Shown here piece by piece: positions 1-42,155 of a stretch of DNA of 42,155 nt (the first letter of the stretch is position 1; each line of letters starts with the position of its first letter). This DNA comes from a virus. The stretch lies in IMG/VR virus record IMGVR_UViG_3300008113_000130, positions 1 to 42,155 of that record. One strand, written 5' to 3'. The notes beneath the pieces are model-generated. The model was not told the origin of the DNA and made no database searches. It saw only the letters and a list, made by a program, of their open reading frames with translations. A program made the position numbers and the translations under genes.

Positions 1-191
1 CGTTTCGGGGGGCGGGGGGAGGGGGGCTTCGCACCCCCGCGTCCCGTGATGGGCATACACCCCGTTCCGCGAAAATCTCAAAAGCTCAGTCAACCTTTAC
101 TTGAGTGAGGCTCTTACCCCCTCGCCAGGGATCGCCAGTGGAGGCACCCACCTTCACACCCTTTGAATTTAGTTGCAAAAAAGGTGGGTGC
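1..191. repeat. Left copy of imperfect terminal direct repeat
   Basis: Bases 1-191 recur in diverged form at the right end (about 41971-42155). A 63-base core (67-129) is identical to 42033-42095, and bases 158-190 are identical to 42123-42155; between and before them are substitutions and single-base indels. The first 66 bases are only loosely similar, but both copies start with a G-run tract (G-quadruplex-like at 7-26) followed by a CTTCGCA(T/C)CCCC segment. The core contains an inverted repeat, CTCAGTCAA at 85-93 and TTGAGTGAG at 101-109 (8 of 9 pairs). This could be a redundant genome end or a tandem repeat at the join of a circular map. The mismatches argue against a simple exact terminal redundancy. 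Confidence 0.85.
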
Positions 192-445
192 CGTCCAAAC
201 CCGCCTACGAGCTGGTGTTTTTGGCCAATGCACCCACCCTTCCACCTTTTCTTCTTTTTTTCTAAGGGAAAAAAAATATATATAAATATATAAATAAAGG
301 GGGTGTTTTATATGCTCCGCCAGAAACCCAAATTTCGCGAAAAAGGTGGAAGGGTGGGTGCATTGGCGAAATAGCGACGCAATTCCAGTGGCTTAAAGAC
401 ACCCACCCTTTGTACCACCCTTTGGCCGATCTCAAAGGGTGGGTG
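143..445. other. Inverted G-rich repeats flanking an AT-rich island; candidate origin or packaging region
   Basis: Three inverted-repeat pairs are built from the same GGTGGGTGC word. GGCACCCACCTT (143-154) pairs with 181-192. A perfect 27-base arm at 224-250 is inverted at 341-367. CACCCACCCTTTG (400-412) is inverted at 433-445. The 27-base pair encloses a strongly AT-rich tract (about 247-315, with runs such as AAAAAAAATATATATAAAT). No convincing gene lies here. Iterons next to an AT-rich unwinding element are typical of replication origins, and the position directly upstream of terminase would also suit a packaging site. The function is inferred only. The region also supplies the leader of the late operon. 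Confidence 0.5.
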
Positions 446-529
446 CCTTCGACGTAAAACTGCCATTCTGCTTGCATTCACCACCTGGCGCGTCTACAAC
501 ACCACCTAAACTTGAGAGGACAACGCCGC

Positions 530-1114
530 GTGAGCGATCCGTTCGACAGTATTAGCATCCCCGACTTCGATGCGCCTCTGGCGCCAGTGAGTTCGCGTAA
601 GCCGAAAGCAAAATCGAAACCTGTACAGAAAGCTGTACAGGAGATCGTCGAAGACGCGGACCCATTGCCGCTGCTCAAAGATGCGAAACCTGTCCTGGCG
701 CCGAACCCTCACCAGCCGCGCGACCTGATCGACGACGCCGGTCGGGTGTTCAGCCAACCGAAGGTCGACCTCAGTGAGATTGAGATGATGGCCAGCGTCG
801 GCATGACGACGAAGCAGATCGCCGATGCGCTCAAGCTACCGCCGACCACGTTTGGCAAGCTCGTCAAAAATGACCCCACCGTGCAAGAGGCCATCGACCG
901 TGGTACCTCCCGCGGTATCAAAATGGTCACCGACAGCCTTTTCCAGAACGCGCTCAAGGGAAATGTCGCGGCGCAGATCTTCTTCCTTAAAAACAAGGGC
1001 GGGTGGGCCGACAAACAGGAGCTTGACCAGCGGCTGCAAGTCGATACAAAGATGAACTTCGAAGACGCAGTCGAAGCGTTGAAGGCGGCGGGCATAGACC
1101 CGTCAAAAATCTAG
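530..1114 (+). CDS. Terminase small subunit
   Basis: This 194-residue protein is the probable DNA-recognition subunit of the packaging motor. The N-terminal ~60 residues are polar and low-complexity. A helix-turn-helix segment follows (around residues 85-115, including MTTKQIADALKLPPTTF), then the small-terminase signature in which a helix ends in FFLKNKGGW. This arrangement is typical of small terminases placed just upstream of a large subunit. The GTG at 530 was chosen because AGAGGA at 515-520 lies 9 bases upstream; a TTG at 512 in the same frame has no such site. It is the first gene of the late operon, followed 10 bases later by a small unknown gene and then terL. It would bind the packaging site, perhaps the repeats at 143-445. 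Confidence 0.8.
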   Translation: MSDPFDSISIPDFDAPLAPVSSRKPKAKSKPVQKAVQEIVEDADPLPLLKDAKPVLAPNPHQPRDLIDDAGRVFSQPKVDLSEIEMMASVGMTTKQIADALKLPPTTFGKLVKNDPTVQEAIDRGTSRGIKMVTDSLFQNALKGNVAAQIFFLKNKGGWADKQELDQRLQVDTKMNFEDAVEALKAAGIDPSKI

Positions 1115-1124
1115 AAAGAAGCAC

Positions 1125-1394
1125 ATGGCAGACAACGACGACGATCTCCCCGACAACGTAGTGGCCTTTCAACTCCGTGCCTCCGGCACCCAGAAGACAA
1201 CGGACTTGCTGTTGGAAGACTGCATCGGTCGTTTTGACGAGGTTGTGGTGCTGGGCTTCACCGACGAAGGTGAAATGGAGATCAGCAGCAGCCTAAAGGG
1301 CGGCGCGGCGGCGGTGTACGAGGCGATAGCCCAGGCGGCGACGCAGATGGCGCTCACACACATCGACATCGTCTACCAAGGCGTCCGCCATTGA
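1125..1394 (+). CDS. Conserved-looking small phage protein between terminase subunits
   Basis: An 89-residue acidic protein of unknown function. The N-terminus is rich in Asp. The rest reads as a short alpha/beta domain, with hydrophobic strands (EVVVLGFTDEG, MEISSSL) and a helix rich in Ala (about residues 60-78). No catalytic motif or membrane segment is visible. Its stop codon overlaps the TTG start of the large terminase by four bases (ATTGA context), so the two are probably translationally coupled. The position suggests a packaging or regulatory accessory, but nothing in the sequence proves it. The reading frame is supported by the tight spacing on both sides. Confidence 0.6.
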   Translation: MADNDDDLPDNVVAFQLRASGTQKTTDLLLEDCIGRFDEVVVLGFTDEGEMEISSSLKGGAAAVYEAIAQAATQMALTHIDIVYQGVRH

Positions 1395-36713: not shown

Positions 36714-36733
36714 AGTTGGAAAGGAAAGTAGAG

Positions 36734-38968
36734 TTGTCTTATCTTAATTCTCACGGCGCGCAACTGATTTCGTTGGGGTATTCCCCACTGCCGATCAGGG
36801 CAGGCCATAAGGCGCCAGCCATCAGCGACTGGCAGAACTGCCACGCTGACGCAGAGAAGCTCGACCAGTGGCTGAGTGATAGCCGCATGGCGAACTGCGG
36901 TGTCGGCATCCTGACCGAGAACACGCCGGCCATCGACATCGACTGTCTCGACAAAGACATCAGCTACAAGCTGGTGAAGTGGGTCGAGAACAACCTCGGT
37001 AAGGCACCACTGCGGATCGGCAAGAAGCCGAAGGCGTTGATGGTGTTCCGCTGCGACGAGCCGTTCGGCAAGATCCGGTCGAACGAATATGTTGACTTTC
37101 TAGGCAACAAGAACGCGGTCGAGGTGCTGGCCAAGGGGCAGCAGTTCGTGGCGTATGCGGTCCACCCTGACACGCAGCAGCCCTACGGCTGGCCGAAGAA
37201 GTCTCTGATCGACATACCGCACGACGATCTGCCCACGCTCACCCAGAGCCAGGCGCAGGAGTTCGTGGCCTATTTCGAAAGCATCATCCCCGATGACTGG
37301 GAACTGTCCCGTAAGGGCGTGTCGACCACGCACGGCGACGTAGACGATCTGCTGACACTGCGTCCGCGTCTCGGCAAAAGTGTGACCGATTTGCAACAGT
37401 GGATGGAAAATCTTGACCCCGACTGTGGCCACGATGAGTGGGTCAAGGTCGGCATGGCCCTGCACCACGAAACCAACGGCGAGCCTGACGGGCTGCGACT
37501 GTGGGACGAGTGGTCGGCGCAGAGCGGCAAATATGTCCACGGTGAGTGCGCCAAGCGGTGGCGCTCGTTCGGACGCAACACGTCAGCGCAGCCGGTGACC
37601 GCCGCCTACATCGAAGGCAAGGCCAAGAAGGTCGTGCGCGAAGAGAAGAAGAAGGGTCTGGTCGACCAGCTTGTGCAGGACTTGGTGTTCGTTCAGGTGT
37701 CGGGCAGCGCCCGTGTCATCCGCGAAGACGATATGCAGGACGGGCTTGAACTGTTCGGCGTCGAGGATCTGACCAAGGAATATGCTAACCAGTGCATACC
37801 CGTTGAGGTCGAGAAAAAGAACGGCGACGTCGTGATCGAACAGGTCAACCCCGTGAAGCTCTGGCTGACGCACCCTGAACGGCGCACAGCCCGTGGCCTG
37901 GTGTTCTTGCCAGAGGGCCAGAAGATCGGCGCGTACAACCTGTGGCGCGGCTGGTCGTGCGAGCCAGAAGAGGGTGACGTGTCGATGTTCACCGACTGGA
38001 TGTTCGACATCATCGCCGACCGCAACGAGGCAAATTACAAGTGGATCATGGGCTGGTGCGCGCAGATGGTGCAGGAGCCAATGACCAAGATCGGCGTGGC
38101 CACGGTGCTGCGCGGCCTGAAAGGCACCGGCAAGTCGAAGCTGGGCGAACTGCTGGGTGGTCTATGCCCACAGCACCACAAGACCATCAGCCGCCAGGAG
38201 CAACTGGTCGGCAACTTCAACCGCCATCTGGAAGACTGCCTGCTCCTGCAAGCAGAAGAGGCGTTCTGGGCCGGCAGCAAGTCCGCAGAGGGCGCGCTGA
38301 AGGATCTGGTCACCAACCCACGCATCATGATTGAGCGCAAGGGCGTGGACAGCTACATGGCGCCGAACTTTACCCGCATCCTGTTCACGTCGAACGAAGA
38401 GTGGGTCGTGCCAGCCACGGCAGATGAACGCCGCTGGGCCGTGTTCGACATCTCCGACCGGCGCAAGCAGGACTATGACTTCTACGCAGCACTGCAAAGC
38501 TGGTACGACCGTGGCGGCAAGAAGCACATCCTGCACCACCTGAAGACGTTCGATCTGGCGACGGTCAACGTCCGCACTGCCCCGCAGACGAAGGCGTTGC
38601 AGGATCAGCAGATGCGTGGCGGTGACTGCGTCCAGCGTTGGCTGTTCGACTGCCTGATGGAAGGCGAGATCAGGGACAGTAAGAGCGGTGCGGCAGTTCA
38701 ATTCGGCGAGGTCGAGGCGAACAAGACCACGATTTACGAGAGCTACCGCAATTCGCAGCAGCGCCATTGGGAGGTCAAGAACCCTAATGGCTTCTGGACG
38801 TCGGTCGCGCGCTACAACGAGTTGTTCTACGGCGGCAAGGTTAAATGCGCGGCTGGCGCTCGCTATAAAGTAACTGCGGTTGCATCGCTGAAGGAGGCAC
38901 GGCAGCTATTTACCAAGCGGCATCAATATCAGGTTGACTGGCCAGATCCTCTCGCTATTGAGGACTGA
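36734..38968 (+). CDS. PrimPol primase fused to D5-like helicase
   Basis: A 744-residue replication protein. The N-terminal domain is an archaeo-eukaryotic PrimPol: LGYSPLPIRAGHKAP, the catalytic acidic pair in AIDIDCLD, and VEVLAKGQQFVAYAVHPDT. A PriCT-2-like domain follows (HDEWVKVGMALHHET, then LWDEWS and RWRSF). The C-terminal half is a superfamily 3/DUF5906 helicase with Walker A LKGTGKSKLGEL, Walker B LLLQAEEAFWAG and a TSNEEWVVPATADERRWAVFD arginine-finger region. It should both prime and unwind at the origin. The TTG at 36734 has GGAAAG six bases upstream; a TTG at 36716 is an alternative. Confidence 0.88.
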   Translation: MSYLNSHGAQLISLGYSPLPIRAGHKAPAISDWQNCHADAEKLDQWLSDSRMANCGVGILTENTPAIDIDCLDKDISYKLVKWVENNLGKAPLRIGKKPKALMVFRCDEPFGKIRSNEYVDFLGNKNAVEVLAKGQQFVAYAVHPDTQQPYGWPKKSLIDIPHDDLPTLTQSQAQEFVAYFESIIPDDWELSRKGVSTTHGDVDDLLTLRPRLGKSVTDLQQWMENLDPDCGHDEWVKVGMALHHETNGEPDGLRLWDEWSAQSGKYVHGECAKRWRSFGRNTSAQPVTAAYIEGKAKKVVREEKKKGLVDQLVQDLVFVQVSGSARVIREDDMQDGLELFGVEDLTKEYANQCIPVEVEKKNGDVVIEQVNPVKLWLTHPERRTARGLVFLPEGQKIGAYNLWRGWSCEPEEGDVSMFTDWMFDIIADRNEANYKWIMGWCAQMVQEPMTKIGVATVLRGLKGTGKSKLGELLGGLCPQHHKTISRQEQLVGNFNRHLEDCLLLQAEEAFWAGSKSAEGALKDLVTNPRIMIERKGVDSYMAPNFTRILFTSNEEWVVPATADERRWAVFDISDRRKQDYDFYAALQSWYDRGGKKHILHHLKTFDLATVNVRTAPQTKALQDQQMRGGDCVQRWLFDCLMEGEIRDSKSGAAVQFGEVEANKTTIYESYRNSQQRHWEVKNPNGFWTSVARYNELFYGGKVKCAAGARYKVTAVASLKEARQLFTKRHQYQVDWPDPLAIED

Positions 38969-38994: not shown

Positions 38995-39459
38995 GTGTCA
39001 GAGATTCGTTTAACTGAAGAAACGCTGAACCACATGGCCGCGATCAGCCGCATCGCAGGCGAGTACAACATCAGCCTTATGGACTTACTGGGGCCAGGCA
39101 AACAGGAGAAGATTGTCGCTGCGCGTGTGGCGTTGTGCCGTGTGCTGCGTAGCGTTCCCCTGTCGATCTCGACCATCGCCAAAGTGATCGGACGTGACCG
39201 CGCATCGGTGCGGAATCTATTGGAGCGCACAGACAACCCGACGCCTGCGTATTTTATTAAGCGTGAAGAGCCAATGCCGCGCGATCCATCGACCAACAAC
39301 TACAAGGCGCACTGCGAACGTGGCTCTAAGGCGCTCGCTGCCGCCATCTTTGCGACTGGCAAGACGCACGGCCCGATGCCAGAGCGGAAGCTCGTTGACG
39401 CACTGATCTGGAGCCGTGGCGCCAACGAGAATTTCCACCGCAAGGGGTGGATGGTATGA
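38995..39459 (+). CDS. Protein with DnaA-like DNA-binding domain
   Basis: A 154-residue protein. Residues ~25-78 follow the C-terminal DNA-binding domain of DnaA: SLMDLLGPGKQEKIVAARVALCRVLR, then SISTIAKVIGRDRASVRNLL, where GRDRASV corresponds to the DnaA signature GGRDHSTV. There is no AAA+ ATPase domain, so it would bind DNA (a phage origin or DnaA boxes) rather than melt it by itself. The second half is a basic domain of unknown type. It starts with GTG, with AAGGAAAA upstream, and comes directly after the primase-helicase. Confidence 0.8.
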   Translation: MSEIRLTEETLNHMAAISRIAGEYNISLMDLLGPGKQEKIVAARVALCRVLRSVPLSISTIAKVIGRDRASVRNLLERTDNPTPAYFIKREEPMPRDPSTNNYKAHCERGSKALAAAIFATGKTHGPMPERKLVDALIWSRGANENFHRKGWMV

Positions 39460-39839: not shown

Positions 39840-39871
39840 CCTGTGCTGTCAATATCCGAGGCGCCATTTTT

Positions 39872-39895
39872 CCACAAAAGATTTGTGGATTTTTT
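39872..39895 (+). terminator. Rho-independent terminator-like hairpin
   Basis: CCACAAA (39872-39878), AGA loop, TTTGTGG (39882-39888), then ATTTTTTCC. The stem is perfect though AT-rich. It points rightward and lies upstream of the XRE gene, so it would stop rightward transcription before the accessory region. Confidence 0.6.
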
Positions 39896-39988
39896 CCGGT
39901 AAAACCAGTTTTGCCTAAAACAAAAACCTAGTTTTGGGTTTTCTATATGGAATAGGCTTTGCCTGGGGTGGATGTACTGCTGACCTAT

Positions 39989-40086
39989 GGCGCAGAGGCG
40001 CAGAGGCGCAGAGGCGCAGAGGCGCAGAGGCGCAGAGGCGCAGAGGCGCAGAGGCGCAGAGGCGCAGAGGCGCAGAGGCGCAGAGG
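39989..40086. repeat. Tandem array of GGCGCAGA, about 12 copies
   Basis: Bases 39989-40086 are an uninterrupted, exact 8-base tandem repeat. Because eight is not a multiple of three, all frames stay open and encode a low-complexity AEAQRRRG pattern, which explains spurious reading frames here. No protein gene is assigned across it. The repeat borders the small leftward gene at 40130. Such arrays change length by slippage and can serve as a switch or as a site bound by a protein. Confidence 0.9.
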
Positions 40087-40129
40087 CCCTGGCGGGCCTG
40101 TCGCTGTCTGTCTATTGGCGCGCATAAGC

Positions 40130-40306
40130 CTATGCCTGCCTGCCTTGCACCATTTGGGCCATTGCCCTATTGATCGCGTCAATGCGCGACAGGGCAGGAT
40201 TGCGCGCCTGTATCGCTTGCGCGCCGGTTTCGATTAGATCCGCTAAATGGTAGGCAATGGCGCGCAATTCGCGTTTGCTGCGCCTGCCTTGTCTGTTTTG
40301 GGCCAT
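40130..40306 (-). CDS. 58-residue basic protein, unknown
   Basis: A short gene (MAQNRQGRRSKRELRAIAYH then a helical LADLIETGAQAIQARN and LSRIDAINRAMAQMV). AAGGATAAAG lies about ten bases upstream of the ATG. It ends 43 bases before the tandem repeat. It is strongly basic at the start, so it may bind nucleic acid. No family was recognised. It lies beyond the terminator of the GP88 operon. Confidence 0.5.
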   Translation of the reverse strand: MAQNRQGRRSKRELRAIAYHLADLIETGAQAIQARNPALSRIDAINRAMAQMVQGRQA

Positions 40307-40394
40307 AGTGTCTTTATCCTTTTGCTGTCGCGTAATAGGCCTAAACAGCGCGCCAGGCAGGCAGAGCGCAATTTAGGCATAAGGCGCGCATAGC

Positions 40395-40427
40395 AAAACG
40401 CCCTGCTAGCTATTGGCTAGCAAGGCG
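40395..40427 (-). terminator. Terminator of the GP88 operon
   Basis: A 7-bp perfect stem TGCTAGC-TATTG-GCTAGCA (40404-40422) is extended by four more pairs after one mismatch (CGCC/GGCG). On the leftward strand it is followed by TTTTGC. It sits 18 bases after the 61-residue gene's stop. Confidence 0.65.
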
Positions 40428-40444
40428 CAGGGCAGGGCAGGGCG

Positions 40445-40630
40445 TTAGGGTTTGCGCTTGGCGCGCAATCGGGCATGGATAATTGCCTCTATTGCCTCTT
40501 TTCGCGCCTTTTCCTCTGTTGTGTTGCCCCATGCATGGATTGACAGGGCCAGGCGCGTTGATCGCAATTGCGACATTGGCGCGCGTTCAAACCTGGCGCG
40601 TTCGGTCGCGATTAACTGTTGAAATGACAT
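40445..40630 (-). CDS. 61-residue accessory protein, unknown
   Basis: A basic helical protein (MSFQQLIATERARFERAPM, LRSTRLALSIHAWGN, EEKARKEAIEAIIHARLRAKRKP). TAGGAGTCTAACCA precedes the ATG, and the last seven bases before the start match the leaders of the GP88 gene and the 31-residue gene upstream. It is probably co-transcribed with them. No family was recognised. Confidence 0.6.
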   Translation of the reverse strand: MSFQQLIATERARFERAPMSQLRSTRLALSIHAWGNTTEEKARKEAIEAIIHARLRAKRKP

Positions 40631-40658
40631 TGGTTAGACTCCTAACTATTGGTTGTAA

Positions 40659-41492
40659 TTAACCGACAACAAAACCGGATTTATCGCGTTTTGCCTTGCC
40701 TTTTGCGTACAGCGCGACAATTGCGCCTTTTGGATCTAAATGCCTTATGTCGCTGTCATCACCGTCAACAACAGGCAGGCCCAAAAATGTTTCGTTATTG
40801 GCCAGCATTTGATCAACAACAGCGCGCGACCGAAACACAACAGCGATCCGCTCACCATTGGCCACAGCGCGCGAAACAAAAGGCGCATAGGCAGGCGCGC
40901 CGGAATAGCTAAACGTCAAATCGTAATTGCTAGGGATATTTTTACGATTAGCAATTTTTGTGTAATCGTAAAATTGCACATCGGGATGCAATTCGAAAAT
41001 GCTAGGCGCGCCATTTAAAGGCAGCGCGATATTTTCAAATCTAATGTCGCTTGTGCCATTGAGACGCACAACAAGCTTGAAACCGTCTCTGATCGCCTGG
41101 CGTTGATAGATCGCTATTTCCCGCGACAGTTGCGCCATAAATTCATTGCGGTATTGGTTGAAATATAGCGTTTTGCGTAGGCGCGACAGCATCACATTAG
41201 ACATTGCACCGCGACCGGCGGTAAACAGGCAAGGCGCCTTGCATCGGGCAGTCTCTGCCATAGGGCATAGTTGCTGGCCAGATCCATCGGCTGGCATCAG
41301 ATAAAGAATTGCTGTCTTTATCCCGTATCGCTCACCCTTTACCGTTTTTGCGTTTGTATCCAGGCCCAAAAGCTTTTCGGGCAATCTGGAAAAGAGCGAT
41401 ACGTTTTTGCTATCGCCTAAGATCTGCGCCTGTATCGATAGCGACAGGCCCGATATATCAAATGCCAGGGTGTTTTTCGTTTGCATCAACAT
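40659..41492 (-). CDS. GP88-family protein with three-cysteine motif
   Basis: A 277-residue protein matching the phage GP88 family pattern. It has NVSLFSRLPEKLLG and KTAILYLMPADGSGQQLCPMA; then Cys76, Cys84 and Cys88 (C-x7-C-x3-C, CPMAETARCKAPCLFTAGRG); then RLRKTLYFNQYRNEF, VVRLNGTSDIRFEN, VQFYDYTKIANRKN and DLTFSYSG. The ordered beta strands and cysteines recall a TIM-barrel with a metal or Fe-S site, but the biochemical role of this family is not known. The gene is the main product of an accessory operon with its own promoter and operator-like sites. The ATG has AAAAGGAAAC upstream. Confidence 0.78.
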   Translation of the reverse strand: MLMQTKNTLAFDISGLSLSIQAQILGDSKNVSLFSRLPEKLLGLDTNAKTVKGERYGIKTAILYLMPADGSGQQLCPMAETARCKAPCLFTAGRGAMSNVMLSRLRKTLYFNQYRNEFMAQLSREIAIYQRQAIRDGFKLVVRLNGTSDIRFENIALPLNGAPSIFELHPDVQFYDYTKIANRKNIPSNYDLTFSYSGAPAYAPFVSRAVANGERIAVVFRSRAVVDQMLANNETFLGLPVVDGDDSDIRHLDPKGAIVALYAKGKAKRDKSGFVVG

Positions 41493-41555
41493 TGGTTTGT
41501 TTCCTTTTCCGGTTTGTTGTCTGGCGCCTTTATATGCTGGCGCCGGTTAGGTAGT

Positions 41556-41568
41556 CAACTATTAGTTG
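41556..41568. promoter_or_regulatory. Operator-like palindrome upstream of the GP88 gene
   Basis: CAACTATTAGTTG is a perfect 13-base palindrome at the 3' end of the 31-residue gene and 64 bases upstream of the GP88 start. It differs only in its centre from the repressor operators (CAACTAGAAGTTG in leftward reading). A one-base variant, AACTATTGGTTG (40644-40655), lies upstream of the 61-residue gene. Confidence 0.6.
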
Positions 41569-41657
41569 TATGGTGGGCCAAATATCCAAGCGTCAAGCGC
41601 CAGGGCAGCGCATAGGTAAATAAGGAATAGGGCTGTATGGATTGCTGCTAGTTTCAT
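41562..41657 (-). CDS. 31-residue membrane peptide
   Basis: MKLAAIHTALFLIYLCAALAL then DAWIFGPPYN: one transmembrane segment (about 3-21) with a short polar tail. AAAGGAAACTAACCA before the ATG is nearly identical to the GP88 leader, which supports translation. It is the first gene of the accessory operon. Small hydrophobic phage peptides like this can be toxins, exclusion factors or membrane anchors; which applies here is unknown. Confidence 0.5.
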   Translation of the reverse strand: MKLAAIHTALFLIYLCAALALDAWIFGPPYN

Positions 41658-41690
41658 TGGTTAGTTTCCTTTTGGTTGTTGTCTGCCCTG

Positions 41691-41759
41691 GCAATAGGCA
41701 GGGCAAGCGATAGTGTCAAGCATTAGTTGCATATTATTTATAGAGCGCATTGCAACTAA
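41691..41759 (-). promoter_or_regulatory. Leftward promoter region of the accessory operon with inverted operator
   Basis: A perfect -35 TTGACA (41714-41719 on the minus strand) is followed 17 bases later by TATTGC (41691-41696). A second possible promoter is TTAGTT-N17-TAATAT (41731-41759). It overlaps a perfect 9-base inverted repeat, TTAGTTGCA (41723-41731) and TGCAACTAA (41751-41759), which carries the TAGTTG half-site of the repressor operators. The 300 bases from 41658 to 41970 otherwise hold no convincing gene; a GTACCA pair lies at 41860 and 41872 and a GGCGG-GAAT-CCGCC hairpin at 41946-41959. Confidence 0.6.
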
Positions 41760-41970
41760 CGATGCGGGATTAGCGGATAGATCCGCCTGCGCTCTGCGCC
41801 GTCGCTGTTAAAAACGCGCGACCGTTTCGCTATCGATCAATGGCAATCATTGGCCAGGTGTACCATTTGGTGTACCAAACGCGCTGTAACCCGCAGAAAA
41901 CCTAGCATCTGCGCCCCATGCCCTATGGTGCGGACGCTGGAAAACGGCGGGAATCCGCCATTGTCGGCAA

Positions 41971-42155
41971 AGAAGGGGAGGGGGGAGGGGGTCTTCGCAT
42001 CCCCGCGCCGCGTCATGGGCCTATACGTCGATCCGCGAAAATCTCAAAAGCTCAGTCAACCTTTACTTGAGTGAGGCTCTTACCCCCTCGCCAGGATCGC
42101 CAGTGAAGGCACCCACCCTTCCACCCTTTGAATTTAGTTGCAAAAAAGGTGGGTG
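41971..42155. repeat. Right copy of imperfect terminal direct repeat
   Basis: This copy starts with a G-run tract (41975-41991) and contains the 63-base identical core at 42033-42095 and the identical 33-base end at 42123-42155, which includes TTAGTTGCA (42134-42142) and AAAAAAGGTGGGTG. It stops at exactly the base where the left copy's corresponding element stops. On a circular map the two copies would sit side by side. Confidence 0.85.

Follow-up and report, generated by a model that had tools for sequence, protein, structure and literature searches.

An inverted-repeat iteron array as the probable replication origin of a tailed phage, with a DNA word that changes in step with the winged helix of the PrimPol-helicase

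The window analysed here is the whole of IMG/VR contig IMGVR_UViG_3300008113_000130, a viral DNA of 42,155 nt, and near its start, at 143–449, it carries an array of short repeats in both orientations around an AT-rich tract. The array lies in a divergent intergenic region between the replication genes, which encode DNA polymerase A, SSB, an exonuclease, an SNF2 helicase, a PrimPol-helicase and a DnaA_C-like protein, and the small and large terminase genes (terS and terL); about 3.1 kb separate it from the PrimPol gene. An earlier note on this DNA had pointed out three inverted-repeat pairs with a common G-rich word, framing the most AT-rich tract of the genome, and had proposed either a dedicated origin recognized by the DnaA-like protein or a packaging site. 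We analysed the array in the window and in related phages, in which its layout is conserved and its word changes together with one domain of the PrimPol-helicase. The features are listed in Table 1.

Six exact copies of GGTGGGTG stand in the array, at 145(-), 183(+), 231(-), 353(+), 400(-) and 438(+), with alternating orientation. The total in the window is 11, compared with 1.7 in shuffles (largest 5). All three pairs were recovered: a perfect 12-nt pair at 143–154/181–192, a 31-nt pair (97%) at 220–250/341–371 that contains the perfect 27-mer, and a 17-nt pair (94%) at 396–412/433–449. The longest perfect inverted repeat in 121–520 is 27 nt, and in 60 mononucleotide shuffles it did not exceed 11. 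No tract of the record is richer in A/T than the one between the long arms, as the earlier note had claimed, and the richest 40- and 60-bp windows start at 238–274. When weaker sites were allowed, doublets about 8–12 bp apart were seen, namely 147>, 156> and 180< on the left, 234> and 242> followed by the AT tract and then 342< and 350< in the centre, and 403>, 415> and 435< on the right. One short word is thus repeated in both orientations, with an iteron set on either side of the AT-rich region, as in iteron origins, and the array with its AT tract is far beyond chance. The window sites were gathered separately, the automatic array detector having chosen instead a region dense in GCGCGC-type words (40100–41800), which outscored the array in the automatic scan. 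An Rfam search of the window gave no match, nor did a DNA search of phage records with window 1–1200.

Table 1. Position and strand of the array elements, the flanking genes and the contig-end copy in the window
Feature	Position	Strand	Remark
Left flank iteron doublet (GCACCCACC + TTCACACCC)	144..164	+	directed at the AT tract
Left flank iteron (AAAGGTGGGTGCC)	180..192	-	inverse orientation
Central left arm, iteron doublet GCACCCACCCTTCCACC	220..250	+	arm of the 31-nt inverted repeat
AT-rich tract	251..300	.	proposed melting/unwinding site; A/T 36/40 in windows starting 255-259
Central right arm, iteron doublet	341..371	-	inverse; right half of the 31-nt pair
Right flank iteron doublet (CACCCACCC + TACCACCC)	396..423	+	
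Right flank iteron	433..449	-	inverse orientation
Small terminase gene (terS)	512..1114	+	downstream of the array; rejected as iteron reader
PrimPol - SF3-like helicase (Prim-Pol, PriCT_2, DUF5906)	36716..38968	+	proposed initiator
PrimPol residues 670-735, predicted winged helix	38723..38920	+	proposed origin-binding domain; divergence tracks the iteron word
DnaA_C-like protein	38995..39459	+	earlier-proposed binder; not supported
Contig-end second copy of 9-190, variant	41975..42155	+	same junction as a strain variant; no second origin

In most relatives (TerL 60–100% identical, with enough upstream DNA), a single-word, two-orientation array with an AT-rich gap was found in the interval between the PrimPol-helicase and small terminase genes, the gap being about 55–120 bp between the innermost detected sites. 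Array scores, a simple count, were 6–12.5, and block shuffles reached 4, or 6 in bacterial loci. The commonest layout is (>>> <)(>> AT <<)(> <<<), from which the window departs on its right flank (>> <). The words of the lineages differ (GCACCCACCC, TTACACACCCT, ACTCACAGGATA and GGTCAAGGTTA). The window's word is retained in the type A contigs L009, L011, L012, L013 and L086, and in the variant of L006/L007 the two arms of the long pair are altered together (GCACTCACC/GGTGAGTGC). Type B (L014–L017) retains the layout and the TATATAAATA tract with TTACACACCCT as its word, and the word of L021 is CTCCAAGACACC. Conservation in relatives, which the earlier note had named as a check, is strong. Within the window array, at 312–374, there is a 20-codon open reading frame (ORF) that has a Shine-Dalgarno-like sequence (AAAGGGGGTG), and short ORFs are present there in type B too.

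About 17 loci in bacterial genomes, mostly of Alphaproteobacteria, encode a distant Rep relative and have similar arrays with other words immediately 3′ of rep, no more than about 70 bp from its stop codon; several of these arrays have the same three-part layout. Apparent matches in two GC-rich bacterial loci (L231 and L239) were discarded. In the isolate Rhizobium phage RHph_X2_30, an array of 12 sites (GGTCCAAG) follows PrimPol at a distance of about 2.9 kb, and no array above background was detected in four of the six distant isolates examined (ZP6, PaMx74, Vibrio K294 and Donnerlittchen). Vibrio phage phiVC8, a diaminopurine phage, has a weaker inverted-repeat cluster of GTCCACCG (L201 870–1090), which overlaps an annotated small ORF and is far from the primase.

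In the 51 loci with both a PrimPol and a TerS gene, these two genes lie on either side of the array. PrimPol residues ~670–735, predicted to form a winged helix, are nearly invariant within type A and are where divergence between types A and B peaks, the winged helix being about 31% different and the remaining PrimPol 8–11%. For 63 close pairs, which are phages with otherwise similar PrimPols and are not statistically independent, the Spearman correlation with word distance was 0.82 for the winged helix, 0.33–0.65 for other PrimPol segments and 0.38 for the TerS helix-turn-helix (HTH). The partial Mantel correlation between word and winged helix, given the rest of PrimPol, was 0.51–0.65 (p=0.00025). 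The cleanest case is L153 compared with L038, whose words are GGTCAAGGTTA and CGCACGGGTA: the winged-helix protein segment is 59% different and the rest 9%. Nucleotide identity between the two is ~0.85–0.93 through the helicase, ~0.5 across the winged-helix codons and 0.82–0.87 at the gene end; beyond PrimPol, homologous blocks are broken by one unalignable stretch, with a second identity drop at the array. Two non-adjacent pieces changed together here, the DNA between the diverged winged helix and array staying largely alignable, and simple linkage is not a ready explanation. Taken together, the best reading of these comparisons is that the iteron word is read by the C-terminal winged helix of PrimPol, and by neither the DnaA-like protein nor TerS.

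The array lies immediately upstream of terS in the window, TerS is more divergent than TerL between types A and B, and the contig ends fall in this region, all of which would suit a pac, cos or terminal-repeat site read by the adjoining small terminase. However, the word does not follow the DNA-binding domain of TerS. L126 and L071 share a word (distance 0.03) although their TerS HTH is 47% different, whereas the words of L153/L066/L067, and of L040/L053, are clearly different despite an HTH about 80% identical. Given the winged helix, little or no partial Mantel correlation is left between word and TerS (0.15 with all phages, negative within subsets). Moreover, the array is 2.4–3.5 kb away from terS in L170/L179/L183 and adjoins rep in the bacterial-genome relatives. 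The packaging site that the earlier note offered as an alternative is therefore very improbable.

As to the contig ends, the last 181 bases of the record are a ~90%-identical variant of 9–190, and contigs L006, L009, L012 and L014–L017 continue across the window's end-to-start junction. The genome thus appears to be circular or permuted, the contig closing on itself inside the array region with two strain variants at its two ends. The two further copies of GGTGGGTG at 42110 and 42148 fall in this variant and would therefore be the same array again. Immediately left of the array (1–70 and 41960–42040) there is a G-run and, after it, a hairpin-like stretch (GGGGGGCGGGGGGAGGGGGGCTTCGCACCCCC ... 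CCGTTCCGCGAAAAT), a combination which is kept in the A, B and L021 types despite their differing words and near which the window, L011 and L013 start; it may be a G-quadruplex or functional site, or a mere sequencing break. Around terS/terL, short inserted genes occur at variable positions in relatives (L006 2510–2848, L016 4838–5100, L013 2927–3487 and L086 144–750); they encode Cys-rich or HNH-like proteins and resemble insertions of the homing-endonuclease type. L011 has a tRNA-like insert (1113–1207; anticodon CCA, tRNA-Trp-like by eye) in the gap between terS and the next gene, which is not present in the window.

The DnaA-like protein had been named in the earlier note as the binder of the array. 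Its gene is next to PrimPol, and it has a weak match, below the Pfam cut-off, to the DnaA C-terminal HTH. However, the gene is confined to the A/B clade: it was found in five of the 51 loci, all of A/B type, and the 46 others are without it. A Pfam search of 21 records likewise found it in three A/B records, with no convincing match in the other 18 and one fragmentary weak match in G003. Although the window and L099 have a common word, their DnaA-like proteins are only about 70% identical and the putative recognition helix is changed. There are no DnaA boxes inside the array; TTWTNCACA occurs once in the genome, at 39868 (chance expectation 2), and forms no DnaA-type cluster. We regard an origin read by this protein as very improbable. 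A different origin at 39868–40087, with that one DnaA-box-like site and the tandem GGCGCAGA x12, was rejected, as the tandem array is found in only three of the relatives compared (L006, L091 and L094). The GGCGCAGA repeat itself is a perfect 8-bp tandem repeat of 12.4 copies (39989–40087) near an AT-rich stretch, and an inverted pair TCCACAAAAGATTTGTGGA lies near it together with the DnaA-box-like site.

The position in a divergent intergenic region, and inverted repeats of a kind typical of operators, could also indicate an operator array through which a phage regulator controls divergent transcription. We consider this highly unlikely, in that changes of the word go with changes in a replicative primase-helicase domain, no sigma-70 promoter-like sites were found in window 1–700, and the array is 3′ of rep in distant relatives.

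An AlphaFold2 model of PrimPol 585–750 showed a helix-helix-strand-strand-helix order at 670–735, with a block predicted local distance difference test (pLDDT) score of about 80–89. Foldseek with the C-terminus returned weak hits (best E 0.03), mostly winged-helix proteins and including origin-DNA-bound Orc1/Cdc6. The C-terminus thus models as a winged helix, which, with the domain matches, suggests a helicase-primase initiator with a C-terminal DNA-binding domain. The only solved structure matched in sequence by PrimPol was NrS-1 polymerase (PDB 6k9c/6lrb), over the helicase core (residues 444–585); the text of the NrS-1 paper mentions neither a winged helix nor a replication origin.

The conserved layout, the AT-rich centre and the covariation of the word with one domain of the replicative PrimPol-helicase lend good support to the dedicated origin proposed in the earlier note, and 143–449 is very probably a phage replication origin of the iteron kind known from P4 and from phage-inducible chromosomal islands (PICIs), including Staphylococcus aureus pathogenicity islands (SaPIs), read by the PrimPol winged helix. 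By analogy with such systems, the C-terminal winged helix would recognize the iteron word, and two helicase rings would be loaded by iteron sets placed head-on at either side of the AT tract. From the inward-facing iterons the rings would then melt this tract, with synthesis started by the primase half of the protein, so that replication would fire at the array.

Besides the non-independence of the 63 pairs, several observations weigh against this origin. The array does not coincide with a turn in GC skew: the skew minimum, which the earlier note had taken as a check, is near 31–35 kb and so formally speaks for another place, but third-position skew is weak and partly follows gene strand, and the check is not decisive. 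Across the phage family the array lies about 1–5 kb from PrimPol rather than adjoining it, and no above-threshold array was found in the PrimPol–TerS intervals of L037/L146, L162, L169, L171, L175 and L176. When distant phages were included (21-phage set), the partial correlation of the winged helix fell to 0.2–0.3, which we read as saturation, and that of the helicase-core segment 422–481 reached 0.5. L059 and L038 have a word distance of 0.25 with a change of merely 6% in the winged helix. Finally, the Foldseek E-values are weak.

Iterons are present at ori/crr of phage P4. The alpha protein of that phage is, like the PrimPol here, a fusion of primase and SF3 helicase, and has a winged helix that binds the origin (winged helix: PMC4234260), as is proposed for PrimPol; the alpha primase, however, belongs to the bacterial Toprim type (PMC4234260) and is not an archaeo-eukaryotic PrimPol. 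PICI and SaPI origins have the same organization as the array, their initiator helicase(-primase) reading the iterons by the Rep C-terminal domain and their words varying between elements (PMC6092414, PMC7581432). They differ in belonging to satellites, where rep is followed immediately by the origin, whereas the window is a full phage that carries terminase, portal and capsid genes of its own (TerL and a major head protein were found, and portal homologues by tblastn) and its origin lies upstream of terS, away from the initiator gene. Initiators combining an archaeo-eukaryotic primase (AEP), an SF3 helicase and a C-terminal winged helix exist in pRN1 (ORF904) and relatives, with the origin downstream of the gene (PMC4234260); the pRN1 origin has one large stem-loop and no iterons (PMC4234260), in contrast with the multiple iterons and one 31-bp inverted pair of the window. 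The iteron origin of a helicase-primase is thus of a known kind. New, in the literature searched, which included few subscription journals, are such an origin in this tailed-phage family, its distance from the initiator gene, and the joint turnover of iteron word and winged helix.

This tailed-phage family and the isolate RHph_X2_30 extend helicase-primase iteron origins to full viruses, and provide a large data set from nature in which an initiator domain is linked to a DNA word, by which the origin specificity of primase-helicases becomes decodable and testable by domain swaps. More tentatively, and with the odds somewhat against it, origin specificity may be a fast-switching lock and key, in which two separate pieces, winged helix and iteron word, are replaced jointly though they do not adjoin. 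If so, the origin of each phage would be insulated from the initiators of co-infecting relatives or from origin-copying satellites.
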